Shown: piece after piece, positions 5,101-33,156 of the stretch | Numbering within the stretch: the stretch's first letter is position 1 | Layout: the number at the start of each line of letters is the position of its first letter | Source: Burkholderia seminalis DSM 23518 | GTDB taxonomy: Bacteria > Pseudomonadota > Gammaproteobacteria > Burkholderiales > Burkholderiaceae | DNA: 64,000 nucleotides | NCBI RefSeq assembly: GCF_902832885.1 | Contig: NZ_CADFDK010000009.1 | Span: forward strand, 1 to 64,000 | Reading direction: 5' to 3' | The notes under the pieces: generated by a model | What the model was told of the DNA's origin: nothing | What the model saw: the letters and a program-made list of their open reading frames with translations, nothing else | The model's database searches: none | Position numbers and translations under genes: made by a program

Positions 5101-5516
5101 CGGTCGAACGGCTCGAGGTGCGCGTGACGGGGCTGAACGACAACCGGCACGTCGTGACCGTCAACGGCCGCGCGCTGCCGCTGCAGCCGACCGGCACCGT
5201 CGGCGAGTACGTCGCGGGCGTGCGCTACAAGGCGTGGTCGCCGCCGTCCGCGCTGCATCCGACCATCGGCGTGCATGCGCCGCTCACGTTCGACATCGTC
5301 GATACGTGGCTGCAGCGCTCGCTCGGCGGCTGTCGTTATCACGTCGCGCATCCGGGCGGGCGCAACTACGCGACGTTCCCGGTCAATGCATACGAAGCCG
5401 AGAGCCGCCGGCTCGCACGCTTCGTCGAGATGGGGCATACGCCGGGGCGGATGGATGTCGCGGCTGCCGCGCCGAGCCGCGAATTCCCGTTCACGCTCGA
5501 CTTGCGGCGGCCGTGA
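2103..5516 (+). CDS. large transglutaminase-like / DUF2126 protein
   Basis: The protein is 1137 residues long. Residues 1-300 form a transglutaminase-like domain with intact Cys183 (GSCRDSAW), His232 (LHAWCEV) and Asp248 (GFDPTSG). The rest matches the long DUF2126 region found only in this protein type. DUF2126 has been linked to amidoligase or circularly permuted peptide-ligation systems, but its reaction is not established. The ATG at 2103 was preferred over the in-frame start at 2058 because it begins with MSIHVALHHTTRYRYD, the usual N-terminus of the fold. The 93-base gap to the previous gene and the same strand suggest one transcript. No signal peptide is seen. Confidence 0.9.
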   Translation: MSIHVALHHTTRYRYDRLVNLGPQVVRLRPAPHCRTPILAYSMTVEPAQHFINWQQDPFSNYLARLVFPERTEHFEITIDLVAEMSVYNPFDFFLEASAEQYPFSYDDALKTELAPYLVCDPQTSASPLFRTYLDGVDRTPAGTVNFLVALNQQLQHDIGYLVRMEPGVQTPEQTLELASGSCRDSAWLLVQLCRHLGIAARFVSGYLIQLTPDVKSLDGPSGTSVDFTDLHAWCEVYLPGAGWIGFDPTSGLLAGEGHIPLACTPQPTSAAPVEGLIDECEVSFEHEMTVTRVYESPRVTKPYTESQWDAVLALGTQVDGALAAGDVRLTQGGEPTFVSIDDRDGAEWNTDALGPTKRGYATELVQRLRAEYGDGGFLHFGQGKWYPGEQLPRWALSIFWRADGQPVWHDPSLFADEREPSAYTTDDAKRFIDALAARLNLTDEFIQPGYEDVWYYLWRERRLPVNVDPFDSRLDDELERARLRKVFDQQLDSVVGYVLPVKRTDDAPGLDGPRWQTGPWFFRDERMYLVPGDSPMGYRLPLDSLPWASRADHPYLVERDPFAPRSALPDAAAIRARYAGPADAPRYLSGVHREAPAQTVMQWRDDGTAAGGRASAHDPQRRPERFESAAWITRTALCAEVRNGILYLFMPPLAALEDYLDLLGAIELTAHALGVKLVLEGYPPPRDARLKLLQVTPDPGVIEVNIHPAASFDELVDHTEFLYDAAWQSRLCSEKFMVDGRHVGTGGGNHFVLGGATPADSPFLRRPDLLASLIAYWHNHPSLSYLFSGLFIGPTSQAPRVDEARNDQLYELDIAFAEIQRNKLLFGQDMPPWLVDRVLRNLLIDVTGNTHRSEFCIDKLYSPDSSTGRLGLLELRAFEMPPHARMSIVQQLLLRALVARFWAAPYTTPLTRWGTALHDRFMLPEFLQMDFDDVLAELREAGFAFDPAWFAPHFEFRFPLFGQIAVNGMQLSLRGALEPWHVMGEEGAPGGTVRYVDSSVERLEVRVTGLNDNRHVVTVNGRALPLQPTGTVGEYVAGVRYKAWSPPSALHPTIGVHAPLTFDIVDTWLQRSLGGCRYHVAHPGGRNYATFPVNAYEAESRRLARFVEMGHTPGRMDVAAAAPSREFPFTLDLRRP

Positions 5517-5673
5517 TCCAGTAACGACGGGGCGGACGACGATGCGCGGCTCGCGATCTCCCGGCGGCCTCGCCGGAATGCTAGGATGCGGGCAGATTGC
5601 GGCCGCGCGCCGTGGCTTGCCGCCCCGATGGCGGCGCGCGTGCGCGGCCGCACCCTGACGACGGAACGACATC

Positions 5674-8322: not shown

Positions 8323-9341
8323 CGACGAAAGGCGCGGTGAAGGCGCCGTCCGGTGCAGGCAAGACACGACCGGCAGCCGCGCCGGCCGCCATGGCGCCCG
8401 GCCGGTTGCTGCGTGTCACGCACGACACCGAATACCGTTACGCGGCGCGCGTCGAATCCGCGCAGCACCAGGCACGCCTGCAACCGCTCGTGACGCCGCG
8501 CCAGCAGGTGCTGTCGTTCTCGCTCGACATCGAGCCCGTGCCGGAATCGGTCTGCACGGAGATCGATGCGTTCGGCAACGCGCGCGCGTCGTTCGCACTG
8601 AACCAGCCGCACGACGCGCTGCTCGTGCGCAGCCGCAGCACGGTGCGCGTGACGCCGCCCGTGTGGTCGCTTGGCGCCCGCGGCGAGCCGCCGCCCGCGA
8701 TCGCGCATCCCGACGCAAGGCAGGCGACCGAATGGGAAGCCGTGCGCGACCGCTTGCGGTTTCGTGCGGGGCAGCCTTACGACGCGGCGAGCGAATTCCT
8801 GTTCGTGTCGCCGCACGTCGCCTGCGATCCCGAGCTCGCCGCTTATGCGGCCGCGAGCTTCACGCCGCAACGGCCGCTCGTGCAGGCCGCCTGGGACCTG
8901 ATGCGGCGCGTGCACGCCGATTTCGCCTATACACCGAACAGCACCGACATCACGACGTCGGCGCTCGATGCGCTGCGGTTGCGCAAGGGCGTCTGCCAGG
9001 ATTTCGCGCACGTGATGATCGGCGCGCTGCGCTCGCTCGGGCTGGCCGCGCGTTACGTCAGCGGCTACCTGCTCACGCAGCCGCCGCCCGGGCAACCGCG
9101 GCTGATCGGTGCCGATGCGTCGCATGCGTGGGTCGAGGTGTACGACCCGGCATGGCCCGAGGACAACGGCTGGCTGCAGCTCGATCCGACCAACGACCGC
9201 TCGCCGGGCGACGACTACGTGATGCTGTCGGTCGGTCGCGACTATGCGGACGTCACGCCGCTGCGCGGCGTGATCCGCGGCGGCGGTGCGGATCAGGAGC
9301 TGAAGGTCGGCGTGACGGTCGAGCCGCTCGATGCGCCGTAA
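8316..9341 (+). CDS. transglutaminase-like protein (intact triad)
   Basis: This 341-residue protein has an intact transglutaminase-like core: Cys227 in GVCQDFAH, His270 in ASHAWVEVY and Asp290 in LQLDPTND. The N-terminal strand domain starts near residue 30 (RLLRVTHDTEYRYAAR), preceded by a low-complexity Ala/Pro/Lys leader. It probably cleaves or rearranges peptide bonds made by the ATP-grasp partner, whose gene it overlaps. Compared with the paralogue at 1032-2009 it lacks the long insert and keeps the nucleophile, so it is the more likely active enzyme of the pair. Confidence 0.88.
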   Translation: MVTTKGAVKAPSGAGKTRPAAAPAAMAPGRLLRVTHDTEYRYAARVESAQHQARLQPLVTPRQQVLSFSLDIEPVPESVCTEIDAFGNARASFALNQPHDALLVRSRSTVRVTPPVWSLGARGEPPPAIAHPDARQATEWEAVRDRLRFRAGQPYDAASEFLFVSPHVACDPELAAYAAASFTPQRPLVQAAWDLMRRVHADFAYTPNSTDITTSALDALRLRKGVCQDFAHVMIGALRSLGLAARYVSGYLLTQPPPGQPRLIGADASHAWVEVYDPAWPEDNGWLQLDPTNDRSPGDDYVMLSVGRDYADVTPLRGVIRGGGADQELKVGVTVEPLDAP

Positions 9342-9521
9342 CGCGGGCCTCCCGTGAGGGCGGTTTCCGGTTTAAGTCTTCGTTAATACTGCACGCCTAG
9401 CATGGTGATGCCGGTGGACGGCCCGGACTCCGGTCCGGCGCGCCGGCGGCACGCGCGGGTGCGTCGACGTCACGGCGCCGCGCCGTCGCGCGTCGCCATT
9501 TCCTTGCAACGGCGGCAGACC

Positions 9522-9794
9522 ATGATCAAGCACTTCGACTACACGCTCGGCGGCGAGACGATCTCGCTCTGCGCGAGCTTCGGCGCGGGCCCGGCATTCC
9601 GCCGCGTGCTCGTGAGCCGCGCGGATTCGATGGAGACGCTGGTGGTGCTCGACGCGCGCGGCCTGTCGGGCCTGCTGAAGGTGGCGACCGAAGAACCGGA
9701 GGGGCTGCTCGACGACGCAATCCGCAAGGTCGGCGACGAGCAGCTTGTCGAGCGCGCGATCAGCGGCAGGACGATCGTCGAAGCCGCGCTTTGA
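9522..9794 (+). CDS. small protein of unknown function
   Basis: The 90-residue protein starts MIKHFDYTLGGETISLC and contains no signal peptide or membrane segment. It is mixed strand/helix by eye, with an acidic middle (EEPEGLLDDA) and ends in IVEAAL. I do not recognise a domain. The ATG at 9522 was chosen over the longer frame from 9402 because the upstream part is Arg/Ala-rich, like out-of-frame translation. It lies alone between the transglutaminase cluster and the convergent iminopeptidase gene. Confidence 0.65.
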   Translation: MIKHFDYTLGGETISLCASFGAGPAFRRVLVSRADSMETLVVLDARGLSGLLKVATEEPEGLLDDAIRKVGDEQLVERAISGRTIVEAAL

Positions 9795-9861
9795 TCGCGG
9801 CGGCGCGTAGGCGTGCCGGCAGGCATCGCAGCACGCACTGCGATGCGTTGCACCCTATGGA

Positions 9862-11118
<1,257 letters not shown>

Positions 11119-18809: not shown

Positions 18810-19829
18810 ATGGACAAGAAACTCTATATCTCCGACGTGACGCTGCGCGACGGCATGCACGCGATCCGTCATCAGTATTCGATTCGGAACGTGCAGGACA
18901 TTGCCCGCGCGCTGGACGAGGCGAAGGTCGACAGCATCGAGGTCGCACACGGTGACGGCCTGCAGGGTTCGAGCTTCAACTATGGCTTCGGCGCGCACAG
19001 TGATCTGGAATGGATCGAGGTGGTGGCCGATGTGGTCAAGCACGCGAAAATCGCGACACTGCTGCTGCCCGGCATCGGCACGATCCACGACCTGAAGGCC
19101 GCGTACGACGCGGGCGCGCGTGTCGTCCGTGTCGCGACCCATTGCACGGAAGCGGACATTTCGAAGCAGCACATCGAGTATGCGCGCAGCCTCGGCATGG
19201 ACACCGTCGGCTTTCTGATGATGAGCCACATGACCACGCCTGACCACCTCGCGATTGAGGCGAGGAAGATGGAAAGCTATGGCGCGACCTGCGTGTACGT
19301 GGTCGATTCGGGCGGCGCGATGAACATGCACGACATTCGTGCGCGCTTCAAGGCGCTCAAGGCCGTGCTTCGCCCCGAGACCCACACGGGCATGCATGCC
19401 CATCACAACCTGAGCCTCGGCGTGGCCAACTCGATCGTTGCGGTCGAGGAGGGCTGCGACCGCATCGATGCGAGTCTGGCGGGCATGGGGGCGGGTGCGG
19501 GCAATGCCCCGCTCGAAGTGTTCGTCGCGGCGGCCGAGCGCCTTGGCTGGCATCACGGCACCGATCTATATCGCCTGCTCGACGCGGCCGACGATCTCGT
19601 GCGCCCGTTGCAGGACCGGCCGGTGCGCGTGGACCGCGAAACGCTCGCGCTCGGCTATGCGGGCGTGTATTCGAGCTTCCTGCGGCATGCCGAAATCGCG
19701 GCGAAGAAGTACGGCCTGAAAGCGGTCGACATTCTCGTCGAACTGGGCAAGCGACGCATGGTGGGCGGTCAGGAAGACATGATCGTCGACGTTGCGCTCG
19801 ATCTGAAGAAGCGCGAAGCCAGCGCCTGA
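18810..19829 (+). CDS. mhpE: 4-hydroxy-2-oxovalerate aldolase
   Basis: The 339-residue aldolase splits 4-hydroxy-2-oxovalerate into pyruvate and acetaldehyde. It begins with the family signature [18 protein letters not shown] (metal ligand Asp and catalytic residues) and has the metal-binding HTGMHAHHN. It partners MhpF, whose gene ends 18 bases upstream, and acetaldehyde is normally passed directly between them. Length matches the E. coli protein (337). Confidence 0.95.
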
Positions 19830-19888
19830 ACCACACGCGTATGCCAGGCGCCGTGAAGAGCGCCGCATCGTTCAACCTGGAGACATCA

Positions 19889-21142
19889 ATGAAAACGTCA
19901 ACGGCTTCTCCCCCGCGTGCCGGCGGCGCCATCACCATCGGGCTGTGCCTCGCGGTTGCCCTCCTCGAGGGTCTCGACCTGCAATCCACCGGCGTCGCCG
20001 CGCCGCGCATGGCACACGAGTTCCATCTCGCCGTCGCGCAGCTCGGCTGGGCATTCGGCATCGGCGCGCTCGGCCTGTTGCCGGGTGCGGCGATTGGCGG
20101 CAGGCTCGCGGATCGCATTGGCCGCAAGCGCGTGCTGATGATGTCGGTCGCGCTGTTCGGGATATTTTCGATTGCAACGACTCAGGTGTGGGATCTGCAG
20201 AGCCTGCTCATCGCGCGTTTTCTCACGGGCCTCGGCCTGGGCGCCGCGATGCCGAACCTGATCGCGCTGTGCGCGGAAGCGGCGGCGCCCGGGCGACGCA
20301 GCACGGCGGTCGGTGCGATGTACTGCGGCATGCCGTTCGGTGCGGCGCTCGCGGCAGTGATCGGCATCGTCAGCCCGGGCGCCGAGGGCTGGCGGCACAT
20401 CTTCTATGTCGGCGGGATCGGGCCGCTGCTGACCTTGCCGCTGCTGGCGATTTTCCTGAAGGAGTCGACGTACTTCGTCGCGGCAAGCCGGGGCGCGACC
20501 CGCGAGTCGAAGGACGGCATCGTGCGCGCGCTCTTCAGTGACGGGCGCGCGGCGACGACCCTCTCGCTGTGGATCAGCTATCTGGGGACGCTGATCGTGC
20601 TGTACTTCCTGATGAACTGGCTGCCATCGATGGTGCTCTCGCGCGGCCTCACGCCGGTACAGGCGAGCATCGTGCAGATGATGTTCAACATCGGCGGTGG
20701 CGTCGGCGCAATCGTGATCGCGGGGTTGATGGATCGCATTGGCAAGCGGCCGGTCGTGGTCGGCATGTACACGGGCATCGCGACTGCGTTACTGGCGCTC
20801 GCCAGCGCGACGGGCAGCGTGTCGATGGCATGGGGCGGCCTGCTGGCGGGGCTGTTTCTCGTCGGCACGCAGTCGGTGCTGTATGCGCTCGCCGGTGCAA
20901 CGTATCCGACGCGCGTGCGCGGCACGGGTGTCGGCGCGGCGGTGGCCGTTGGCCGGGTGGGATCGATGGTCGGCCCGCTGATCGCCGGGCAACTGCTGGC
21001 GTTAGGCCAGAGCGCGTCGATGCTCGTGATCTCGAGCATTCCGCTCATCGTGATCGCGGCGCTCGGTGCGCTCACCGTGGTCGCGAAATCTCCGCGCGAG
21101 TCGACCAACGGCTCGCACACCCTTGGAACCGAATCGATCTGA
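19889..21142 (+). CDS. mhpT: MFS transporter, probably for 3-hydroxyphenylpropionate
   Basis: The 417-residue protein has twelve predicted membrane helices and the MFS motif [15 protein letters not shown] after helix 2. It belongs to the aromatic acid/H+ symporter group. Its place between mhpE and mhpC makes uptake of 3-(3-hydroxyphenyl)propionate the likely job. The ATG at 19889 has a TGGAG ribosome binding site seven bases upstream; the frame extends to 19841 but that start has no such site. In E. coli mhpT is the last gene, while here mhpC follows it. Confidence 0.88.
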
Positions 21143-21156
21143 CGAAGGACATCGAC

Positions 21157-22023
21157 ATGACTGACACCGTGATTCATACCGAAGCCGCGACCAGCAAGTA
21201 CATGAACGTGATGGAAGGCGGCAGGGAACTGCGTGTGCACTACAACGACACCGGCGCGGGCGGGCAAGCGCTCGTTCTGCTGCACGGCTCCGGTCCGGGC
21301 GCGAGCGGCTGGGCGAACTTCCATCGCAATGTGGACGCGTTCGCGAATGCGGGTTATCGCGTGATCCTCGTCGACTGTCCCGGCTGGGGCAAGAGCGACT
21401 CGATCGTCTGTACCGGCTCTCGCTCCGACCTCAACGCGCGCGTGCTGAAGGGCGTGCTGGATGCGCTCGGCGTCGAGCGCGCGCATCTCGTCGGCAACTC
21501 GATGGGCGGGCATAGCGCGGTGGCCTTCGCGCTGTCGTATCCCGAGTGCGTCGGCAAGCTGGTGCTGATGGGCGGCGGCACGGGCGGTCCGAGCCAGTTT
21601 GTGCCGATGCCGACCGAAGGCATCAAGCTGCTGCAAGGGTTGTATCGCGCCCCGACGCTCGAGAACCTGAAGAAGATGCTCAATGTGTTCGTCTACGACG
21701 CGAGCACGATGACCGAAGAGCTGATGCAGACGCGGCTCGATAATATGCTCGCGCGGCGCGATCATCTCGAGAATTTCGTGAAGAGTCTGGCGGCCAATCC
21801 GAAGCAGTTTCCGGACTACGGTCACCGACTGAACGAGATTCAGGCGCCGGCGCTCGTGATCTGGGGACGCGATGACCGTTTCGTGCCCATGGATGTCGGG
21901 CTGCGGCTCGTTTGGGGGATGCCGAACGCCGATCTGACCGTGTTCGGGCGCTGCGGGCACTGGGCGCAATGGGAGCACGCGGAGCGATTCAACCGGATGG
22001 TGCTGGAGTTCCTGCACCAATGA
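21157..22023 (+). CDS. mhpC: 2-hydroxy-6-oxonona-2,4-dienedioate hydrolase
   Basis: The 288-residue alpha/beta hydrolase cleaves the ring-fission product into succinate (or fumarate) and 2-hydroxypentadienoate. The nucleophile elbow GNSMGGHSA, the oxyanion motif [12 protein letters not shown], Asp in WGRDDRFVP and His in [10 protein letters not shown] are all present. It starts 14 bases after the transporter. Its position at the end of the operon differs from the E. coli order. No strong terminator for the plus strand was found after it. Confidence 0.94.
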
Positions 22024-22159: not shown

Positions 22160-22181
22160 AAAAAAGGCCCTTGCGGGCCTT
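22160..22181 (-). terminator. Rho-independent terminator of the phosphonate operon
   Basis: A perfect 7-bp stem (AAGGCCC at 22164-22170, GGGCCTT at 22175-22181) with a four-base loop is flanked by a run of A on the plus strand. On the minus strand this gives a stem followed by a run of T, so it ends transcripts coming from phnW, about 25 bases past its stop. It may also slow mhp transcripts from the other side. Confidence 0.8.
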
Positions 22182-22205
22182 CGATCGACGAGAAAGGGCG
22201 GCCGT

Positions 22206-23270
22206 TTAACGCGTCAGCGCCGTAAACCCTTCCAGCAACCGCTCGACGTCAGCCGCCTGAATCGCGCCCATCGTCGAGATCCGGAACAGTTCCTTCGACA
22301 ACCCGCCTTGCCCCGCGTAAATCACGAAGCCGCGCGCCTTCAGCCCGTCGTGCAGCGCTTCGTACGTGACGCCTTGCGGCAGCCGATACGCGCGCAGCAC
22401 GACCGACGACGCGCCTTCCGGCAGCACCAGCGGCATCCCGCGCGCAGCGAGCCCGGCCTGCGCCTGATCGGCGAGCGCCTTGTAATGCGCATGGCGCGCA
22501 CGCCAGCCGCCGGCTTCATCAAATTCGCGCAGCGCCTCGACGAGCGCATAGTACGCATGCACGGACGGCGTAAACGGCGTGTTCCGCTGATCCTGCAGCT
22601 TCGCGAGACGGCCGAGATCGAGATAGTAAGTACGGCTTGCAGCCTTCGCGAGCGCGCGGCGTCGCACGATCACGAACGCCGCGCCAGGCACCCCGTGCAG
22701 GCACTTGTTTGCGGTCGCGGCAACCGCATCGATGTCGCCACCGGCGAAGTCGATCGCTTCCGCGCCGAAGCTGCTGACGCCGTCGACGAGCATCTTCACG
22801 CCGCGCGCGCGGCAGACTTCCGCGATCGCGCCGAGGTCGTTCAGGCGGCCCGTCGTCGTTTCGTGATGGATCACCGCGACGTGCGTGTAGCCGCCCGCGT
22901 CGAGGCGCGCGGCAATCTGCGCGGGATCCGGGGCCTGCATCCATTCATGCTTCAGCACGTCGTGCGCGATGCCGTACTGCGTCGCGATCTGCGTGATCCG
23001 CTCGCCGTACACGCCGTTCTCGATCACGAGCAGCTTGCCGTCCTGCGGCACGAGCGCCGCGATCATGCTTTCGACGGCCGCCGTGCCCGAGCCCGTCATC
23101 AGCACGGCCGTCCATTCGGCCGGGTCGAGTTCGTACGCGGCGACGAGGCGCGCACGCGCCTCATCCTGCAGATCGAAGAATTCGCTTTCGCGGTGGCACA
23201 GATCGGGTTGCAGCAGGCTGCGGCGCACGCGCTCGGTGAGCGTGACCGGGCCGGGGTTCAGCAGCAGCAT
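22206..23270 (-). CDS. phnW: 2-aminoethylphosphonate-pyruvate transaminase
   Basis: The PLP enzyme interconverts phosphonoacetaldehyde and 2-aminoethylphosphonate, with alanine/pyruvate as the partner pair. Residues LLNPGPVTLTERVRRSLL and the lysine region AATANKCLHGVPGAAF are typical. The product is 354 residues from the ATG at 23270; a TTG one codon earlier is also possible. That ATG shares a base with the decarboxylase stop (TGATG), so the two are coupled. With PEP mutase upstream, the reaction here most likely runs towards 2-AEP synthesis, not breakdown; no phosphonatase (phnX) gene is nearby. Confidence 0.93.
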   Translation of the reverse strand: MLLLNPGPVTLTERVRRSLLQPDLCHRESEFFDLQDEARARLVAAYELDPAEWTAVLMTGSGTAAVESMIAALVPQDGKLLVIENGVYGERITQIATQYGIAHDVLKHEWMQAPDPAQIAARLDAGGYTHVAVIHHETTTGRLNDLGAIAEVCRARGVKMLVDGVSSFGAEAIDFAGGDIDAVAATANKCLHGVPGAAFVIVRRRALAKAASRTYYLDLGRLAKLQDQRNTPFTPSVHAYYALVEALREFDEAGGWRARHAHYKALADQAQAGLAARGMPLVLPEGASSVVLRAYRLPQGVTYEALHDGLKARGFVIYAGQGGLSKELFRISTMGAIQAADVERLLEGFTALTR

Positions 23271-24451
23271 CAATGGGCTCCTTCAACGTGTGCTTCGGTC
23301 TGCGTGGCGCCGATGTGCCGCATCAGACGGGTCTTGACCTCGACCGGCGTGACGGTCGGGCGGGGCAGGCCGTCGGGCACGCCCGTGCGGATCGCGACGC
23401 GCACGAACTGGGCGCCGTCGCCCGATGCGGCCAGCGTCGCATCGAGCACGTCGAGCGTGTCGCCTTCGAGCGCCGACGCATAGCCGCATGCGGCCGCGAC
23501 GCCCGCGAACGACACATGCTGCGATACGGTTGCCTGGCCGCCCGTCGATTCGTGCGCGCCGTTGTCGAGCAGCACGTGCGTGAGGTTGGCCGGGCCGTAG
23601 GTGCCGAGCGTCGCGAACACGCCCATGCGCATCAGCGCGGCGCCGTCGCCGTCGACGGCGACCACGCGCAGGTCGGGGCGCGCGAGCGCGAGGCCGAGCG
23701 CGAGCGGCGTCACGCAGCCCATCGAGCCGACCATGTACAACTGGTTCGGGCGATCGTCGAGCGCGTAGAGTTCGCGGCCGCAGAAGCCGGTCGACGCGAG
23801 CACGACGGTCGAATCGACCGGCGTGTGCGCGATCACGCGCCGCAGCGCGTCGTGACGGGTCGGCCATGCATCGGCCGACACGGCGCGCGACGACGATTGC
23901 GCGGCGACATGCGCGCGCGGCTTGGCGGCCGGGTTCGCCTTCAGTTCATACGGCGCGACGCTGCCTTTCTGCATCACGAGCGCGTACGGGCGGCCCGTCG
24001 CGTCCATGTGCGCGATCGCGCGGTCGAGTGCCGGGCCGACCTGTTCGGGGTCGGTCGGGAACGTCTCCCACGGAATCTCCATCGTGTCGAGCATCGCGGG
24101 CGTGATCGGGCCCATCAGCGCATGCTGCGGCTCGTCGGCGACGCCCGGCTGGCCGCGCCACGTGACGATCAGCAGCTGCGGCAGGCGGAACGTCCAGGTC
24201 AGCGACGTGAGCGGGCTCACCGCGTTGCCGAGCCCCGAGTTCTGCATCATCGCGATCCCGCGCTTGCCGCCGAGCGTCGCGCCCGCGATCAGCGCGACCG
24301 CGTCGCCTTCGTTCGCGGCCGACACGTAGTTCAGCGTCGGGTCCTGCAGCACGTAGTTGATGAACGGCGTCAGGTACGAGCAGGGCACGCCCGCGTACCA
24401 GTCGAAGCCGCGTTCGCGCGCGGCCTCGACGAACTGGGCCGCTTCGATCAT
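23270..24451 (-). CDS. aepY: phosphonopyruvate decarboxylase
   Basis: The 393-residue thiamine-diphosphate enzyme turns phosphonopyruvate into phosphonoacetaldehyde, the irreversible step that drives phosphonate synthesis. The N-terminal half has the ligand-binding motifs ([28 protein letters not shown] with the conserved Glu). The C-terminal half has the TPP/Mg motif starting [10 protein letters not shown] and ending at LLDN. The start at 24451 overlaps the end of the PEP mutase gene by four bases (ATGA). It is the same length class as Ppd/Fom2 enzymes. Confidence 0.94.
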
Positions 24452-26133
24452 TGCGCGCCCCCGTTGCCGGCGCCCGGTTCGGACAGCGGCGTCTGGCCGT
24501 GCGCGAAGTCGCCCGCGCGGCGGAAGTCCTCGAGGTCGTTGACCCCGCGCCAGTGGCCGTGCACGTACTGCACCTCAATCTTCTCGCCGGCGGCGATCAG
24601 TTCGTTGAGCAGCGACGGAATGTCGAGCGTGTCGAAATCAGGGCGCGCCTGCAGCGTCGCGAGCATCGCCTTCAGGCGCTCGACACCGGCGCCGCGCACG
24701 TTCAGCAGGCCGATCCAGCGGCCGTGCGGCGTGCCCGCGGCAACGTCGCTCGACACGCGCTGCAGGTAGGTCTTCTGGCCGAACAGGCCGCGATCGTCGG
24801 CGGCCGAGCAGAGGGCGAAGTCGCGCACGCTCTGATTGGTCTCGGTGAGCGACGAATCGACCACCACGCTGAACTCGGCCTCGCTCTCCGCGAGGTCGCG
24901 CACGATGTAGCTGCGGAACAGCAGGTCGCCGTACGAGATCACGGTGTCGCCCGTCAGGCGTTCGGCCGCGCAGGCGAGCGACGCGAGCTCGCCGGTCTGC
25001 GCGTGGCGCTCGTTGACGACGAGCTTGATGCCCGACGTATCGATCGCATCGGCGCGATAGCCGCCAACCACGGTGATGTCGTTCACGCCGTGCGTCTTGA
25101 AGCCGTCGACGAGCCAGCGCAGCAGCGGCTTGCCGGCGACCGGCAGCATGACCTTCGGCTTGTCTTCGGTCACGGCTTCGAGGCCCTTGCCGCGGCTCGC
25201 GGCGAGCACGATCGCGGCATTCGACGCGCGCGACGACGACGACAGGTAGATACGCTCGGCCGCCGAGTACTCGTCGGCGTCCTGCAGGCGGAAGATCTCG
25301 TTGACCGATGCCACGCGGTCCTCGACGTTGATCAGCGTTTCGCTTTCGTGGATCTCGCGCGCGGTCGCCTGCATCGCGGATGCCGACGCGCGGATCAGAT
25401 GATTCGCCCAGATCACGGTGCTGATGCCGGCCTGGCGGAACACGTCGGTCGGCGTGCTGTAGTACTTGGTCGGCACGATCACGAGCGGCGCCTTGCCGCT
25501 CCATTCGCGCGCGAACTGCAGGATCTCGTCCGGGCGCGACAGCTTGCTGTGGATCAGGATCGCGTCGGCGCCGGCTTCCGCATACGCGTTCGCGCGGCGC
25601 AGCGCCTCGTCCATACCCCAGCCGGCGATCAGCGCCTCGACGCGCGCGACGATCGAGAAGTCGGGATCGGTCTGCGAATCCTTGCCGGCCTTGATCTTGC
25701 CGCAGAACTCGTCGATTTCCGCGAGCGGCTGGCGCTCGCCGCCGATGAAGCTGTTCGTCTTCGGGAACTGCTTGTCCTCGATGCACACGCCCGCGATGCC
25801 GCGCTGTTCGAGCTTCTTCACGAGGCGGCGCACGTTGTTGAAGTTGCCGTAGCCGGTGTCGCCGTCGAGCAGGATCGGCAGGTCGCTCGCGTCGGCCATG
25901 AATTCGAGCACGTCGACGACCTGCGTCCAGCTCGCTTCGTTGTTGTCGCGCACGCCGAACTGCGCGGAGATCGCGAGGCCCGACGCCCAGATCCCCTTGA
26001 AGCCGGCTTCGCGGACGATGCGCGCGGACAGGCCGTTGTGCGCTTCCATCAGGAATTCGAGGTCGCTGCTGACGAGCATGCGGCGCAGGCGCGCGCTGCG
26101 CGATTCGGTGAAGTTGGGTTCGCGTGCGTTCAT
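24448..26133 (-). CDS. aepX: PEP mutase fused to a nucleotidyltransferase
   Basis: Residues 1 to about 295 are phosphoenolpyruvate mutase, which rearranges PEP to phosphonopyruvate. The hallmark EDK-x5-NS motif is intact ([10 protein letters not shown], Glu119 to Ser128), separating it from isocitrate lyase relatives. Residues from about 305 to 561 are an NTP-transferase domain ([10 protein letters not shown], then [15 protein letters not shown]), similar to cytidylyltransferases fused to PEP mutase that activate phosphonates as CMP derivatives (the PntC type). The ATG at 26133 overlaps the stop of the upstream LicC-like gene. The longer frame up to 27117 runs antisense-free but crosses other genes and was rejected. 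Confidence 0.93.
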
Positions 26134-26897
26134 CGTGCGGCTCCTGCGGTCGTGCGTTGAATCAGGGGGAGGATGTCTTGGGTCGCGCGGGCGACGTCGT
26201 TCGGGAAGTCGATCTCGATCCACGGCGAGCCGGTGACGTCGGCCACGTCGAACGAATGGCCGCCTTCGAGCAGCAGGTCGCGCACGGCTTCCTCGTGCGG
26301 CAGGTTCGCGCGGCCGCTGTCGACGTAACCCGCGACGATCGTCGCGAGGCGGCGGGCGGTGCCTTCGGTGAAGCGGAAGAAGCCGACCGATTCGCCGATC
26401 GTGTCGTAGTCGAGGTCGACCGCGAGCTGCTTGCGCAGTTCGACCGGCACGCCGTTCTTCAGGCACAGCTTGACGGGCTCGTCGCCGGCCTCGAAGTCGC
26501 GGTCGATCAGCAGGCGGTCGACCGCCTGGTCGGCATCGGCCACCAGCGCATGCAGGATGTTCTCGTCGTACAGCACGTCCGCGTCCATCAGCAGCACGTC
26601 GCCGCCGCGCGTCATCGCATCGGCGACGGTATGCACGGTCAGCACGCTGCCGAGGTCGTAGCGGTCGTTGATCACGATCTCGGCCTGGCGGCCGAGGCGC
26701 TTCATTTCCTGCTCGACCTTCTCGTGCTGAAAGCCGAGCCCGAGCACGATCTCGTCGACGCCCGCGGCGTCGAGTACGCGCAGATGGCGCTCGAGCAGCG
26801 ACACGTCGTCGAAGCGCAGCAGGCACTTCGGGAACTGCGCTTCGGGCGGTTGTTGCAGGCGCAAGCCGAGGCCTGCCGCAAGAATGATGGCTCGCAT
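26130..26897 (-). CDS. LicC-like nucleotidyltransferase
   Basis: This 255-residue protein is a stand-alone NTP transferase with the nucleotide motif [12 protein letters not shown] and the Lys in FPKCLLRF (Lys24). The metal site is in [12 protein letters not shown]. The sequence resembles phosphocholine/phosphonate cytidylyltransferases. The start ATG at 26897 has GGAG nine bases upstream. It is the second nucleotidyltransferase of the operon, alongside the one fused to PEP mutase. It could activate a different head group, or the modified one. Substrate is not determined. Confidence 0.85.
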
Positions 26898-26932
26898 GGG
26901 TTCTCCAACCAAAAAGCCGGCGATCTGAACGA

Positions 26933-27934
26933 TCAGTCGGCGAGCGGCTGCGGCGCACGGCGCCGCTGCCAGTTTCTTTCACTGAAATGCAGATAGAGCA
27001 GCCCGGGCAGGCCGAGCGCGAGTTCGCGCGCGCGCTTCGCGAGCGACAGCGCGAGCGCCGCGTCGGGCGGCAGTCCGACCAGCGGGGCGAGCAGCAGGTA
27101 GCCGCCTTCCTGCGCACCGAGCGAGCCGGGGATCGCGAAGGCCGCGCCGCGGATCGCCTGGCCGACGCTTTCCAGCAGCAGCGCGTCGAGCCAGCTCACC
27201 GGGTGCCCGAGGAAGTGCAGGGCGAGCCACACTTCCGCGGTGCCGACGATCCAGCCGACGAGGCTCAGCGCGAACGTCTTCGCGACCTTCGCGCGATCGC
27301 GGTACAGCGCGCCGACCGCGTCGTCGATCGCATCGGCGCGCGTGGCCAGCGACGACCAGTCGCGCGGGCCGAGCAGCTTCGACGCGAGGCGCAGGCCGCG
27401 GCCGAACAGCCCGCGCCGCTGCGCCGCGTAGAACAGCAACGCAAGCGCGCCGAGCACGCCGGTCGCGATCAGCGCGGGCGTGCGCAGGTGCGCGACCGAC
27501 TCGTGCGTCGCATACAGGCTGAATGCGGCGACGCCGATCAACGCGAAGGCCATTTGGGCAAGCGCCTGCATCGTCGTGCTGACGGTTACGGCCGCCGCCG
27601 CGTCGGCCATTCGCGTGCCGCGCTGCGCGAGGTGGCGCACCATCAGCACGGGGCCGCCGATCTGCCCGGCGGGCAGCAGGCTGTTGACCGATTCGCCGAC
27701 CCAGCGCGCGCGCAGCGCGTTGCCGAGATCGGCACCGGGCTGCCCGCGGCGGAACATGGCGGAGATCGCCGTCGCATCGATCACGAGCGGCACGACATGG
27801 AACGCCGCGACGAGCGCGAGACCCCAGCCGGCCGCGAGGAACGTGGACGCGACCGCGCCGATGCCCTGCCAGGCAAGGAGTGCAATGAAGAGTGCGGTCC
27901 CGAGGGACAGCAGGATGAGGCCCGCGCGCGTCAT
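26933..27934 (-). CDS. flippase-like membrane protein (LPG synthase TM domain family)
   Basis: The 333-residue protein has about eight hydrophobic segments and belongs to the UPF0104/lysylphosphatidylglycerol synthase membrane-domain family, whose better-known members move or modify lipids in the membrane. The motif [23 protein letters not shown] and the later [22 protein letters not shown] are family marks. It has no soluble synthase domain. Its start overlaps the oxygenase stop by four bases. In this operon it may flip or present the phosphonolipid; that role is inference. Confidence 0.82.
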
Positions 27935-28740
27935 GACCCGGTCGTGCGTCGCGTCGCCAGTTGCTTGAACACCTGGCGGAAACCGAAATACGCGATCGCG
28001 TCCTTCATGTTCGAGATGAAGCGCTTCCACGGCCGCATGCCGGGGTTCGTCACGTATTCGAACGTGAGCGACACGCGCATCTCGTTCTGGCCGAGCGGCG
28101 TGATGCGGTGACGCAGCTTGTCGCCGTCGAACAGCACGATGCCGCCGTCGGCGATCTGCACCGAGCCCGGTTCGTCGGCGACGTCCGGGTTGCGCGTGTG
28201 CAGCTCGTAGTCGAGCCGGCACGACGATTCGTCGATCACGCCGATCAGCAGCGTGTAGCGACGGCCATCGTAGTACGACGTGTCGTAATGCCAGCCGATG
28301 TGGTCGCCGGGCTTCGTGTAGTAATACAGCGCGTACGCGTGCGGATCGTCGTCCGGCGACAGCATCAGCTTGTCGCCCGTGACTTTCTCGAGGAAGCCGA
28401 TCAGCGCCTTCGAGCGATAGAGCTCGGCGATGTACGGCGCCTGCTCGTCGATCGTATGACGGCTCACGCTGCCGCCCTGCTTGTGGCCGGGCAGGTAATT
28501 GCGGTTCAGGCCGGCCTGCATCGCGCGGGCGGCGCTCGCGAGTTTCGCGTGCGCGTCGGCGGGCAGGAACGTGTCGAGGTACAGGAACGAGCCCTGGCGC
28601 GTGTAGTCGCCGCGCAGGCGGTCGAGGTCGAGCCGGCCGACGCGGTCGGCCACGGTGCGATCGGGGTCGGCCGCGGCCGCGCGCACGGGCGCGGGGCGTG
28701 CCGGGCTCAGCACGGAGTCGTCGCGCGTGCTAGGAGTCAT
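27931..28740 (-). CDS. Fe(II)/2-oxoglutarate oxygenase, hydroxylase-type metal site
   Basis: The 269-residue protein resembles the HalD/BesD group of Fe(II)/2-oxoglutarate enzymes. The iron triad is readable: His151 and Asp153 in GWHYDTSYYDGRRYT, and His211 in KLRHRITPL, with Arg222 (EMRVSLTF) as the likely 2-oxoglutarate anchor. Halogenases of this group replace the Asp with Gly; here Asp is kept, so hydroxylation is predicted. The gene overlaps both neighbours by four bases and so is firmly part of the phosphonate operon. Possible substrates are 2-AEP, its CMP ester or the lipid; none is proven. Confidence 0.82.
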   Translation of the reverse strand: MTPSTRDDSVLSPARPAPVRAAAADPDRTVADRVGRLDLDRLRGDYTRQGSFLYLDTFLPADAHAKLASAARAMQAGLNRNYLPGHKQGGSVSRHTIDEQAPYIAELYRSKALIGFLEKVTGDKLMLSPDDDPHAYALYYYTKPGDHIGWHYDTSYYDGRRYTLLIGVIDESSCRLDYELHTRNPDVADEPGSVQIADGGIVLFDGDKLRHRITPLGQNEMRVSLTFEYVTNPGMRPWKRFISNMKDAIAYFGFRQVFKQLATRRTTGS

Positions 28741-29419
28741 TTGGAAGCCTGGATTTCGGTTGAATTCTGCGGAGCGTTGCCACGGCGGACGATGCGCCAC
28801 CAGTCGATCACGACCCATGCGGCGAACAGCGGGGCGCCGATCGATGCCGCGAGCAGGAACGGCTCGACGCCGTCGACGAGCGTCACGATCGGCAGCAGGT
28901 ACAGCACGTCTTCGGTTTCGAAGCCGCCTGCGAACGCCTGCTTGGTGCCGGCCTTGCCGGCGATCGATTCGATCCGCATGCGCAGGAAGAAGATCAGCGC
29001 GACGGCCGCACCGGCCACCGCGCCCAGCAGCACCGGCGACGCGGCCATCTGGCCGCCCTGGGCGACGATGCCGAGCCCCATGCTGACGAACAGCGCGACC
29101 GTGACGAGCGCATCGGCCGCGAGATCGTAAAAATGACCGATCATGCTGGACTTGCCGCTGATGCGCGCGAGTTCGCCGTCGGTGTGGTCGACGAAGTTCG
29201 ACAGCACGATCAGGAACGCGCCGGCATTGCTCCAGCCGAAGCCGCCGTGCGCAAGGCACCAGGCACCGGCGAGGCCGATCAGCAGACGAAGGGTAGTCAG
29301 GTGATTCGGGGTGACCGGCGTATCGACGAGCGGTCGGACAAGCGAGCGCGCGAGCCGCGCATCCCAGGTGCGTGGCAGGGGGGGGGCTCGGCGCGTGTGG
29401 CGGTTTTTCTTTGGTCCAT
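28737..29419 (-). CDS. CDP-alcohol phosphatidyltransferase (frame broken at a G tract)
   Basis: The body carries the full family signature D-x2-DG-x2-AR-x8-G-x3-D-x3-D (DHTDGELARISGKSSMIGHF then YDLAAD) and four to six membrane helices. The family joins a CDP- or CMP-activated head group to a lipid alcohol. No start codon exists in this frame near the N-terminus. The only sensible ATG (29419, MDQRKTATRAE) is in another frame, and a run of nine G at 29378-29386 lies between them. One added or two missing G would join the two parts into a protein of about 226-227 residues. This is either a sequence error or a real switch. Confidence 0.78.
29378..29386. repeat. nine-G homopolymer in the phosphatidyltransferase N-terminus
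   Basis: Nine consecutive G on the plus strand (C on the coding strand) sit about eleven codons after the predicted start. In this length the gene is out of frame; seven or ten would restore it. Tracts of this kind cause slipped-strand switching in some bacteria, and are also a common place for sequencing errors. Confidence 0.9.
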
Positions 29420-30081
29420 CGGCGAAATATATACGGAATTGTAATTTGTTGCTTTTTATTCGATCAATGTCCTGACATGCGGGAGTGTTACCGCGTCTTG
29501 CACGTATCGGCCCGCCGAAGCCGGATGCGCGACAGGGCGGCCGATCGGGATGGCAGGCGGCGTCGCCGGGCCCGTCTTCCAGTGTGGTTCGCGTCACGCC
29601 GCTGTCAAGGACGGGCGGGCCTCGCGGGCCGATGCGGCGGAGATTTTCGCGCGCGGCGGCGAGCCGTGCGCAGCGCATGCGACGTTGACGTGCGTCAGGT
29701 CCGGCAAAGCATCGTCGGGCGACAATCGGCCGCGCCGCGACTTCATCGGCCATTGCCGATGTCGGGCGGCGAATTGCAATGGAAATCCGCCGATTGATGC
29801 GCGACGGTTGGCGATCGTCGTCCGGCCATTCGCTCCGATGCTTTCGCGCACCTTTCGGGTGCATCGGGAGGCGCGGATCGACTGTCACAGAACGGTCGTT
29901 CGATACCCGGCATATTCGGTAAGGATCTTTTGCATCCAGCGGACATTTCGCGGCGACGGCCTCTGCGATACTCCGGCCATGCCTGTGGTGCCGGCCGCCC
30001 CGCGCGGCCCCAAGGGCTTCATGTCGCTCAGGAGACACCCCCCGCGACGTCAACGACAGACCCCAGCGTCAGAAACCTGCC
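29420..30081. other. intergenic region between divergent genes
   Basis: About 660 bases between the phosphonate operon and the CoA-transferase gene carry no gene I can support. The stretch from about 29402 to 29465 is strikingly AT-rich, with TATATATT just upstream (on the minus strand) of the predicted start at 29419, and probably holds the operon promoter. The rest is GC-rich with no clear hairpin or repeat. Confidence 0.5.
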
Positions 30082-31596
30082 ATGTCTTCATCACGCATCC
30101 TCGCTCCCGCCCTGCGTTCGCTCGTCCGCACCGCCGACGAAGCCGCCGCGCTGATCCGTCCCGGCATGACCGTCGCCATGAGCGGCTTCACCGGTTCGGG
30201 CTATCCGAAGGCCGTCCCGGCCGCGCTTGCCGCCCATATCGACGCGGCGCACGCGCGCGGCGAGGACTTCCGGATCAACGTGCTGACCGGCGCGTCGACC
30301 GCGCCCGAACTCGACGGCGCGCTCGCCCGCACCAACGGCATCTCGATGCGGCTGCCTTACCAGTCCGACCCGACGCTGCGCGACAAGATCAACGGCGGCG
30401 AAGTCGATTACCAGGACGTCCACCTGAGCCACGTCGCGCAGTACGCATGGTTCGGGCTGTACGGCGATCTCGACGTCGCGATCGTCGAGGTCGCGGGCAT
30501 CCGCGAGGACGGGCTGCTGATCCCGTCCGCGTCGATCGGCAACAACAAGACCTGGCTCGAACGCGCGAAGCACGTGATCCTCGAGGTGAATGCGCGCCAG
30601 CCGCTCGGCCTTGACGGGATGCACGACATCTATTACGGCACCGCGCTGCCGCCGCATCGCAAGCCGATTCCGCTGACGAAGAGCGACGACCGCATCGGCG
30701 AGCCGTACCTGCGCTGCCCGGCCGACAAGATCGTCGCGATCGTCGAGACCGACGCGCCCGATCGCAGCAATGCGTTCTCCGCGCCGGACGCGACGTCGAA
30801 GCAGATCGCGCTGCAACTGATCGACTTCCTGCGCCACGAAGTGAAGCGCGGCCGCCTGCCGGAAAACCTGCTGCCGCTGCAGTCGGGCGTCGGCAACATT
30901 ACGAACGCGGTGCTCGCGGAGCTCAGCTCGGCCGGCTTCTCGAACCTGACGGCCTATACCGAAGTGATCCAGGACGGCATGCTCGACCTGCTCGACGACG
31001 GCACGTTGAGCTTCGCGTCGGCCACCGCGTTGTCGCTGAGCCCGGCCGCCGTGCAGCGCTTCGCCGACGAAATCGCGACGTTCCGCGAAAAGATCGTGCT
31101 GCGCCCGCAGGAGATCAGCAACCATCCGGAGCTCGTGCGCCGCCTCGGCTGCATCGCGATGAACGGGATGATCGAGGCCGACATCTACGGCAACGTGAAC
31201 TCGACGCACGTGATGGGCACGAAGATCCAGAACGGTATCGGCGGCTCGGGCGACTTCGCGCGCAATGGCTATCTGTCGTGCTTCATGTCGGCGAGCACCG
31301 CGAAGGGCGGCGCGATCTCGCGGATCGTGCCGATGGCGAGCCACGTCGACCATACCGAGCACGACGTCGCGGTGGTCGTCACCGAGCAGGGCCTGGCCGA
31401 CCTGCGCGGCCTGTCGCCGAAGCAGCGCGCGCGCAAGATCATCGCGACCTGCGCGCATCCCGACTACCGGCCGATGCTCGAGGACTACTTCGAGCGCGCG
31501 TCGCGCGAGAGCTTCGGCAAGCACACGCCGCACCTGCTCGCCGAGGCGCTGTCGTGGCACGAGCGCTACGTGCGGACCGGCACGATGAAGGTCTGA
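30082..31596 (+). CDS. succinyl-CoA:acetate CoA-transferase / acetyl-CoA hydrolase family
   Basis: The 504-residue protein belongs to the class I CoA-transferases of the Cat1/AarC/Ach1 type, which move CoA between acetate, succinate or propionate. The glutamate that forms the CoA thioester is Glu294 in NLTAYTEVIQDG, and the oxyanion-like loop is in QNGIGGSGDFARNGYLSCFM. Such enzymes are often misnamed acetyl-CoA hydrolase. The gene is single, divergent from the phosphonate operon and ends in a hairpin shared with the convergent efflux gene. The acyl specificity cannot be told from sequence alone. Confidence 0.9.
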   Translation: MSSSRILAPALRSLVRTADEAAALIRPGMTVAMSGFTGSGYPKAVPAALAAHIDAAHARGEDFRINVLTGASTAPELDGALARTNGISMRLPYQSDPTLRDKINGGEVDYQDVHLSHVAQYAWFGLYGDLDVAIVEVAGIREDGLLIPSASIGNNKTWLERAKHVILEVNARQPLGLDGMHDIYYGTALPPHRKPIPLTKSDDRIGEPYLRCPADKIVAIVETDAPDRSNAFSAPDATSKQIALQLIDFLRHEVKRGRLPENLLPLQSGVGNITNAVLAELSSAGFSNLTAYTEVIQDGMLDLLDDGTLSFASATALSLSPAAVQRFADEIATFREKIVLRPQEISNHPELVRRLGCIAMNGMIEADIYGNVNSTHVMGTKIQNGIGGSGDFARNGYLSCFMSASTAKGGAISRIVPMASHVDHTEHDVAVVVTEQGLADLRGLSPKQRARKIIATCAHPDYRPMLEDYFERASRESFGKHTPHLLAEALSWHERYVRTGTMKV

Positions 31597-31606
31597 CGCG
31601 GCGTCG

Positions 31607-31628
31607 GACGGGCGCATGCGCGCCCGTC
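31607..31628. terminator. hairpin between convergent genes
   Basis: A perfect 9-bp stem (GACGGGCGC and GCGCCCGTC, loop ATGC) lies between the stops of the CoA-transferase and the efflux gene, reaching into the latter's stop codon. It lacks a T run on either side, so it may act as a weak bidirectional terminator or with Rho. Confidence 0.5.
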
Positions 31629-33156
31629 AGTCCATCGCCGCGTGCGCGACGTCGACGCTCGCCGTTTTCTGCGGCGGGCGGATCAGCAGCAACAGCGGGA
31701 TCATCAGCAGCGTCGCCACGAACATCAGCTTGAAGTCGTTCAGGTAAGCGATCATCGCCGCCTGCTGGTTGATCGTGCGATCGAGCAGCGCGATGTCGAG
31801 GCGGCTGCCGGCCAGCGCCTGCACGGCCGGGTCGAACGGCGTGATGTGGGTCGCGAGGTCGGCATGCGCGACCTGCGTGTTGCGCGTCATCAGCGTCTGC
31901 ACGATCGAGATGCCGATACTGCTGCCGATGTTGCGCATCAGGCTGTAGGTGGCCGTGCCGTCCGCGCGCAACTCCGGCGGCAGCGTCGAGAACGACAGCG
32001 CGCTCAGCGGCACGAACACGAGCCCCAGCCCGAAGCCCTGGACCACGCCCGGCCACACGATGTCCGATTCGGACAGCACGACCGTGTACTGCATCATCTG
32101 CCATAGCGCGAGCGCGGAAATCGCGAGCCCCGCGAGCAGCAGCATCCGTGCATCCACGTATTTCAGCAGCCTGCCGACGAGCAGCATCGCGATCATCGTG
32201 CCGGCGCCGCTCGGCGCGGTGACGAGGCCCGTCGTCGCGACCGGGTAGCCCATCAGGTTCTGCAGCATCGGCGGCAGCAGGGCGCGCGTCGCGTACAACA
32301 CCGCGCCGACGACGAAGATGAACAGCGTACCCGTCGCGAAGTTCGGGTCGCGCAGCAGCTCCGACTTGAAGAACGATGCCTTGCCGACGGTCGCCGTATG
32401 CACGAGGAAGAACGCGAAGCTGAGCGCCGCGACGAGCGCCTCGATGCGGATCTCGTACGAACCGAACCAGTCGAGCTGTTCGCCGCGGTCGAGCATGGCC
32501 TGGAACGCGCCGATCGCGAGCGCCAGCGTCGCGAAGCCGAACGCATCGAATTTCACGTGCGGGCGCGGCGCGCGTGCCGGCAGGAAGGTCATCACGCCGG
32601 CGAGCGCGAACGCGCCGATCGGCACGTTGATGAAGAACACCCAGCGCCAGTTGTAGCTGTCCGTGAGCCAGCCGCCGAGCGTCGGGCCGAGGATCGGGCC
32701 GACCATCACGCCCATCCCCCAGATCGCCATCGCCTGGCCTTGTTTCTCGCGCGGGTTGATGTCGAGCAGGATCGACTGCGACAGCGGCACCAGCGCGGCG
32801 CCGAACACGCCCTGCAGCAGCCGCGCGCCGACGATCTGCACGAGCGTCTCGGACAGCCCGCACAGCGCCGACGCCACCGTGAAACCCGCGATCGACACGA
32901 TCAGCAGCCGCTTGACGCTCAACCGGTCGGACAGCCAGCCGGTGAGCGGCGTCGCGATCGCCGCGGCGACGATGTAGGAGGTCAGCACCCACGTGATTTC
33001 GTCCTGCGACGCGGACAGCGTGCCCTGCATGTGCGGCAGCGCGACGTTCGCGATCGTGCTGTCGAGGGTCTGGATCAGCGTGGCGAGCATGATCGACAGG
33101 GTCAGCATCGGCCGGTTCAGGGCGGGCGAGGCGGGGGCGTCGGCGGCGGGGTTCAA
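31627..33156 (-). CDS. DHA2-family drug efflux permease (EmrB-like)
   Basis: The 509-residue protein has fourteen predicted membrane segments, the motif GWLSDRLSVKRLLIVSI after helix 2, and motif C-like GPILGPTLGGWLTD, all typical of DHA2 drug/H+ antiporters such as EmrB. No EmrA-type membrane fusion partner or TolC-type channel is adjacent, so it may act alone or with distant partners. A MarR regulator is divergently encoded 135 bases away and shares an operator with it, so induction by MarR ligands is likely. Confidence 0.9.
   Translation of the reverse strand: MNPAADAPASPALNRPMLTLSIMLATLIQTLDSTIANVALPHMQGTLSASQDEITWVLTSYIVAAAIATPLTGWLSDRLSVKRLLIVSIAGFTVASALCGLSETLVQIVGARLLQGVFGAALVPLSQSILLDINPREKQGQAMAIWGMGVMVGPILGPTLGGWLTDSYNWRWVFFINVPIGAFALAGVMTFLPARAPRPHVKFDAFGFATLALAIGAFQAMLDRGEQLDWFGSYEIRIEALVAALSFAFFLVHTATVGKASFFKSELLRDPNFATGTLFIFVVGAVLYATRALLPPMLQNLMGYPVATTGLVTAPSGAGTMIAMLLVGRLLKYVDARMLLLAGLAISALALWQMMQYTVVLSESDIVWPGVVQGFGLGLVFVPLSALSFSTLPPELRADGTATYSLMRNIGSSIGISIVQTLMTRNTQVAHADLATHITPFDPAVQALAGSRLDIALLDRTINQQAAMIAYLNDFKLMFVATLLMIPLLLLIRPPQKTASVDVAHAAMD

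Follow-up and report, generated by a model that had tools for sequence, protein, structure and literature searches.

A conserved Burkholderia operon for a probable membrane phosphonolipid and its association with hopanoid makers

What does Burkholderia seminalis DSM 23518 build with a seven-gene operon for carbon–phosphorus (C–P) chemistry, and to which molecule is the phosphonate attached? The operon lies on a stretch of 64,000 nucleotides (nt), here called the window (RefSeq assembly GCF_902832885.1, 7.97 Mb in 55 contigs; contig NZ_CADFDK010000009.1, positions 1 to 64,000), where its genes run in one direction on the minus strand, from 29419 down to 22206. A preliminary description of this DNA had proposed a lipid with a C–P bonded head group. 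The identities of the genes, their order and conservation, the PntC-like profile of one of them and the association with hopanoid genes come directly from the present analysis, and we assign a probability of roughly 0.5 to the reading that the operon serves the hopanoid system as a membrane pathway for phosphonyl tailoring. The pathway goes with hopanoid makers and, in several genera, lies inside or beside the hopanoid cluster. It is this association that is newly added here, as the phosphonolipid reading of the Burkholderia cluster is already in print, at least in a figure legend (PMC5987646, Fig. 7 legend).

Pfam and NCBIfam searches gave a family to each of the seven genes. In the order of transcription they encode a CDP-alcohol phosphotransferase, an Fe(II)/2-oxoglutarate (2OG) oxygenase, the membrane protein HpnL, a separate nucleotidyltransferase of the NTP_transf_3 family (NTP2), a phosphoenolpyruvate (PEP) mutase with a second NTP_transf_3 domain at its C-terminus (PEP mutase-NTP), phosphonopyruvate decarboxylase and 2-aminoethylphosphonate (AEP) aminotransferase, making eight activities on seven genes. 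Five of the six junctions overlap, by 1–4 nt, and a 35-nt gap between HpnL and NTP2 is the only exception; coordinates and family searches thus bear out the operon as first described. The three enzymes then named as AEP makers also hold, all scoring above their family cut-offs: PEP mutase, which carries the EDK-x5-NS motif, at 406 bits against 320 (TIGR02320), the decarboxylase at 483 against 313 (TIGR03297) and PhnW-AepZ at 401 against 361 (TIGR03301).

The operon is more than a chance arrangement, since 32 of 40 loci examined in relatives, spread over ten genera, repeat all seven genes in the same order, although L100 does so with broken frames. The remaining eight comprise a locus at a contig end (L080), two from genus g20 (L070, L103), four from other families (L083–L086) and one (L102) from G016, a member of the genus that lacks PEP mutase-NTP. 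A single full-length PEP mutase-NTP match, at 86–100% identity, was obtained in 63 of 65 genomes of the genus, including one with an internal stop (G058); the other exception besides G016 has the gene in pieces (G025). Among the best 80 of 474 candidate stretches, the relatives that carry a name belong to Burkholderia, Paraburkholderia, Trinickia and Cupriavidus, and Mycetohabitans appears among plasmid records. One of these named loci (L133) places the PEP mutase in the soil strain Paraburkholderia xenovorans LB400. Across a family set of 299 genomes from 25 genera, the oxygenase was found in 179 genomes and 11 genera, and PEP mutase-NTP, at a threshold of 1e-60, in 176; both occur together in 174, the oxygenase alone in five, the mutase alone in two and neither in 118. 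This spread bears on the idea of a free, secreted small-molecule phosphonate of the antibiotic type. Other Burkholderia phosphonate clusters do make free products, flavophos being an example in the part of the literature available (PMC12871164), yet the present operon occurs in nearly all genomes of the genus and is strongly conserved, it includes a membrane transferase, and no ligase or peptide-synthesis family is matched by any of its seven genes, which leaves such a product very improbable.

Genus g20 departs from the common arrangement. Its operon is split: at each of the six mutase loci examined, the PEP mutase half is separated from the remaining four genes, and in one genome (G083) those four were located elsewhere. 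Ahead of the PEP mutase, remnants of the NTP2 tail in two of the six, L189 (8080–8235) and L193 (5583–5684), are traces of this split. Another of them, L190, has a split decarboxylase and only a fragment of the aminotransferase. The mutase is retained in 30 of 34 oxygenase-positive g20 genomes; in one without it (G194) the lipid-side block has decayed.

Two NTP-transferases had been noted at the outset; both are present, but they are not equivalent. The NTP2 profile (22 sequences) matches Treponema denticola PntC (6pd1) over its full length (profile positions 2–250) at 5.2e-37, followed by LicC at 6.5e-18. The signature arginine (GxGxR) is kept in NTP2 at 82 of 82 readable loci (85 matched) and in the fused domain at none of 129 (132 matched), the loci not being deduplicated, so that some genomes appear twice. 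Both the PK lysine and the YGD metal aspartate persist in the fused domain at all 129 readable loci. Because of the PntC match and the intact arginine, which is lost in the fused domain, we infer that CMP-AEP is made by NTP2, as a PntC-like enzyme, and that the fused domain serves another catalytic role or none. Given this loss, we rejected the idea that the fused domain is a cytidylyltransferase on a par with NTP2, although an arginine three places before the signature position (R314), found at 125 of the 129 readable loci, could stand in for the missing residue. In the available part of a 2019 survey, Glu104 and Glu196 are given as the neighbours of the AEP amine in PntC (PMC6697681); NTP2 has E202 at the position of Glu196 and D105 at that of Glu104, an Asp as in LicC. 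The same survey counts NTP domains fused to PEP mutase as nucleotidyl activation, and the two PntCs that it characterises are not mutase-fused domains (PMC6697681).

On the lipid side, the CDP-alcohol motif D-x2-DG-x2-AR-x8-G-x3-D-x3-D is complete and invariant in 26 aligned sequences. The best profile matches of the enzyme are AF2299, IPCT-DIPPS and PIPS, then CEPT1. We take some of these nearest solved relatives to use CDP-linked head groups and one to use CDP-diacylglycerol, and, the substrates being of mixed type, the sequence of the enzyme is not decisive for the acceptor. Activation with CMP followed by CDP-alcohol transfer, as originally suggested, gains support as a predicted route from these family and profile matches. 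Together, the AEP, CMP and CDP-alcohol family matches and the lack of any glycan enzyme family among the seven genes make a lipid the best reading of the product, and a membrane lipid of some kind is very probable. That much of the preliminary description stands, although it missed the link to hopanoids, in view of which an ordinary glycerolipid becomes just one of two options to be taken seriously. A phosphonoglycan, in which CMP-AEP would be used on polysaccharide or lipopolysaccharide as has been proposed for several pnt clusters, is improbable: no gene of the seven matches a glycosyltransferase or LicD-like family, and a CDP-alcohol phosphotransferase is there instead.

The oxygenase groups with HalD and BesD (PDB profile match to Halogenase D, 3.1e-08). 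Halogenases of that type carry Gly or Ala instead of Asp, whereas among 25 sequences of the operon enzyme H151 and D153 of the H-x-D...H motif are invariant and H211 and R222 nearly so. As the H-x-D is kept, the enzyme appears to be of hydroxylase rather than halogenase type, and hydroxylation is likelier than halogenation; the possibly hydroxylated head group proposed earlier agrees with this. In two genomes of other families a PhyH-family oxygenase takes the same place (L084 of G401 and L086 of G412), and the oxygenase of L083 is of HalD type, so that different families can supply the oxygenation step.

The association with hopanoid makers rests on co-occurrence and on gene neighbourhood. 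In the family set, squalene-hopene cyclase is present in 178 of the 179 oxygenase-positive genomes, the sole exception (G040) having pieces of a cyclase, one at a contig end; a further 36 genomes have the cyclase only and 84 have neither. In an order set of 250 genomes, PEP mutase-NTP occurs in seven and the cyclase in 22, and all seven are among the 22. Outside the family, the cyclase is found in four of four mutase-positive genomes versus 19 of about 243, a total counted from incomplete lists. Fisher/hypergeometric values for co-occurrence, all of which ignore ancestry, are 5.8e-44 in the family and 2.7e-5 outside it, or 4e-4 if the four outside genomes are taken as three families.

The operon lies beside hpn genes in five of 11 genera (g7, g8, g11, g15, g16). 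It forms one stretch with dxs, hpnN, hpnM, ispH, hpnH, hpnA, hpnB, hpnG and the cyclase in G192 (g11), G079 and G114 (g16) and G108 (g8), has the same set within about 30 kb in G156 (g8), and adjoins hpnN and hpnM at the g7 and g15 loci. In G412, from another family, the cyclase, hpnH, hpnN and hpnM surround it. Family models confirm HpnN, IspH, HpnA, HpnB, HpnG, the cyclase and HpnH in these neighbourhoods; HpnN and HpnM of G412 match below cut-off, and the HpnM of L206 matches no model at 1e-20. In Roseomonas marmotae (L203), NTP, PEP mutase-NTP, decarboxylase, HpnL-like, aminotransferase and CDP-alcohol genes sit inside the hpn region, with an MMPL transporter on one side and ispH, hpnH and a hopanoid phosphorylase on the other. 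No hpn gene was found in the few-kb flanks of the g3, g10, g17, g20 and g25 loci. More distant PEP mutase-NTP fusions (about 50% identity) have a cyclase in two of six genomes and none in four; the operon's type of CDP-alcohol enzyme was not found in the stretches examined of these six, except for a 28% match in L195, and for this reason they do not test the hopanoid link either way. The L195 locus (3650–10521) itself combines PEP mutase-NTP, decarboxylase, an Fe-dependent alcohol dehydrogenase, a PF01467 cytidylyltransferase and a CDP-alcohol gene, and is perhaps a hydroxyethylphosphonate version of the pathway.

Within the operon, HpnL itself belongs to a hopanoid-associated family (TIGR03476, 373.5 bits against a cut-off of 195.65). 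According to the part of a 2025 paper available, the function of HpnL was not established as of that year, and HpnL is absent from the studied alphaproteobacterial genomes without hpnH (PMC12583986). In two trees, the operon HpnL clusters with its counterparts from the operons of other genera and away from the other two HpnLs of its own genome, which is a hint of an operon-specific grouping; the first tree contains three rows judged to be in the wrong frame and dropped six sequences that were too short, and the second contains eight such rows and does not unite the operon HpnLs in one clade. Those two further HpnL proteins, on contigs C1 (L245) and C4 (L246), are 31–32% identical to the operon HpnL. 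The source genome also encodes two squalene-hopene cyclases (contigs C7 and C3).

We propose the following pathway, in which every reaction, the place of the hydroxylation, the acceptor and the flipping are predictions. PEP mutase, decarboxylase and aminotransferase would form AEP, and NTP2 would activate it to CMP-AEP. The 2OG enzyme would hydroxylate either AEP or CMP-AEP, the CDP-alcohol enzyme would then transfer the phosphonate from CMP-AEP to a lipid hydroxyl, most likely that of a bacteriohopanepolyol, and HpnL would move the lipid product across the membrane. Because the pathway goes with hopanoid makers and in several genera sits in or beside the hopanoid cluster, a hopanoid is the likeliest acceptor, at about even odds, with diacylglycerol next. 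The fully specified product, a phosphonohopanoid whose polyol side chain bears a (hydroxy)AEP phosphonate ester, made by the CDP-alcohol phosphotransferase from CMP-AEP and exported by HpnL, is a tentative proposal with a little less than an even chance; alternatively, within the favoured reading, the head group may sit on a lipid that works with hopanoids rather than on the hopanoid itself. Attached to a bacteriohopanepolyol, the head group would add a computed mass of 107.014 as AEP or 123.009 as hydroxy-AEP.

The foremost competitor, possible though rather less probable than a phosphonohopanoid, is a glycerophosphonolipid: the CDP-alcohol enzyme would move (hydroxy)AEP from CMP to diacylglycerol in the style of the Kennedy pathway, giving a C–P analogue of phosphatidylethanolamine, and the hopanoid association would come from the two lipids being partners in the membrane or using one exporter. 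CEPT1 and cholinephosphotransferases are also among the matches of the CDP-alcohol profile, at 2.2e-05 and weaker, and the same gene set in Nostoc II and a homologous Burkholderia cluster has been drawn with its pathway in a figure legend (PMC5987646, Fig. 7 legend). On the other hand, a glycerophosphonolipid by itself predicts neither contiguity with the hpn cluster in several lineages nor a cyclase in all four mutase-positive genomes outside the family.

Against a hopanoid pathway stand several further points. To our knowledge, characterised phosphonolipids are glycerol- or sphingolipids and not hopanoids. The cyclase is common in the family to begin with (214 of 299 genomes), the counts of its co-occurrence with the operon are uncorrected for shared ancestry, and 36 cyclase-positive genomes of the family lack the oxygenase. 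HpnL is present in 33 of these 36 (31 over cut-off) and is consequently a general hopanoid gene. No hpn gene was found in the window, and the few kb flanking the other Burkholderia loci and the 80 named ones likewise gave none. Finally, three g20 genomes (G125, G258 and G277; loci L185, L186 and L187) have an apparently intact CDP-alcohol phosphotransferase, oxygenase, HpnL and NTP2, but neither a PEP mutase (at 1e-60) nor a genuine match to the decarboxylase was found in them. Judging from these loci, lipid-side genes can persist without endogenous AEP, and the three genomes may take AEP from outside or use another substrate.

The features of the locus are collected in Table 1. Its first gene, at 29419, had been called a CDP-alcohol phosphatidyltransferase; the family holds (PF01066), but in this assembly the ATG is out of frame with the domain. 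The break lies in a homopolymer between the two (29370–29419), and the domain's own frame has no ATG, GTG or TTG within roughly 140 nt upstream. All 45 Burkholderia loci compared, some genomes entering twice, have the corresponding ATG in frame, and the start position varies in other genera. As the break falls in a homopolymer, a real frameshift and an assembly or sequencing error are both possible.

Table 1. Genes and candidate regulatory sites of the phosphonate operon, in window coordinates
Feature	Position	Strand	Evidence
CDP-alcohol phosphotransferase (PF01066), domain frame	28737..29369	-	Pfam 1.4e-13; motif; profile matches
Fe(II)/2-oxoglutarate oxygenase, HalD/BesD-like with H-x-D	27931..28740	-	Pfam HalD 1.1e-12
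HpnL, flippase-like membrane protein, hopanoid-associated family	26933..27934	-	TIGR03476 8.6e-112; PF03706 8.7e-27
NTP2, stand-alone cytidylyltransferase (NTP_transf_3), probable PntC (CTP:AEP)	26130..26897	-	PntC profile match; signature Arg
PEP mutase fused to NTP_transf_3 domain (~24448-25236)	24448..26133	-	TIGR02320 4.8e-122
Phosphonopyruvate decarboxylase (Ppyr-DeCO2ase)	23270..24451	-	TIGR03297 5.1e-145
2-Aminoethylphosphonate aminotransferase (PhnW-AepZ); ATG at 23270, TTG at 23273	22206..23273	-	TIGR03301 4.4e-120
Terminator-like hairpin with T-run behind last gene	22163..22182	-	Consensus match only
Promoter-like site upstream of operon; stretch conserved in close relatives	29438..29467	-	Consensus match only

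The terminator-like and promoter-like matches of the operon are weak candidates, little above what shuffled sequence would give: five terminator-like sites were counted in the whole region against 4.0 expected, and one promoter-like site against 0.4. A leaderless transcript, guessed from a TATATT near the start, was dropped once the promoter-like match was found further upstream. Next to the operon, at 18810–22023, lies what looks like an aromatic ring-cleavage pathway: a hydrolase close to the BphD family, though under that family's cut-off, together with two proteins identified by eye as aldolase-like and as an MFS-like transporter. The other flank (30082–33156) holds a succinyl-CoA:acetate CoA-transferase of the ScpC family and an EmrB-type efflux transporter.

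Hopanoids, the bacterial counterparts of cholesterol, are also the principal molecular fossils that bacteria leave, and a phosphonohopanoid, if true, would be a new hopanoid class with a charged C–P head group. Should the link be real, much of the family would have a charged hopanoid or hopanoid-partner lipid that could be overlooked in routine hopanoid or phospholipid analyses, hpnL would gain a candidate role, the phosphonate field would gain a lipid pathway with defined steps, and caution would be due in calling every PEP mutase-fused NTP domain a cytidylyltransferase. Even with diacylglycerol as the acceptor, the tie to hopanoid makers would deserve an explanation.

Among the top-ranked papers listed in literature searches, with subscription journals mostly outside their scope, none tied the Burkholderia cluster to hopanoids or reported a phosphonate hopanoid. 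The closest precedent is a 2018 study in BMC Genomics: its Fig. 7 legend presents this gene set of a lichen Nostoc, along with its Burkholderia homologue, as a phosphonolipid pathway that follows Yu et al. 2013 PNAS in adapted form (PMC5987646). Like the operon, these putative Nostoc II and Burkholderia clusters comprise CDP-alcohol PT, OG-Fe(II), NTPT, pepM, ppd, AEPT and hpnL; a term count finds no "hopanoid" in the text, and its available parts do not discuss the signature of the fused domain (PMC5987646). In a survey of Acetobacteraceae, PEP mutase was linked to hopene cyclase in several Roseomonas, and an "undiscovered terpene-phosphonate" was suggested, with no mechanism given in the part available (PMC8776678). 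These clusters share with some relatives of the operon the linkage of PEP mutase to hopanoid genes, but belong to another class and have another gene order, and no 2OG gene is annotated in L203. IPCT-DIPPS and AF2299 join a CTP:inositol-1-phosphate cytidylyltransferase to a CDP-alcohol phosphotransferase, and their halves resemble NTP2 and the CDP-alcohol enzyme of the operon; in the operon, however, the two are separate genes, NTP2 matches them more weakly than it does PntC, and an inositol gene is lacking. The Pnt pathway of Treponema denticola and Atopobium rimae, as far as the available text goes, has Ppm, Ppd, AEPT and a CTP:AEP cytidylyltransferase in common with the operon, and likewise has one Ppm-fused and one separate NTP domain per cluster; where the Pnt clusters carry LicD-like or glycan genes, the operon has a CDP-alcohol phosphotransferase, HpnL and a 2OG enzyme instead (PMC6697681).

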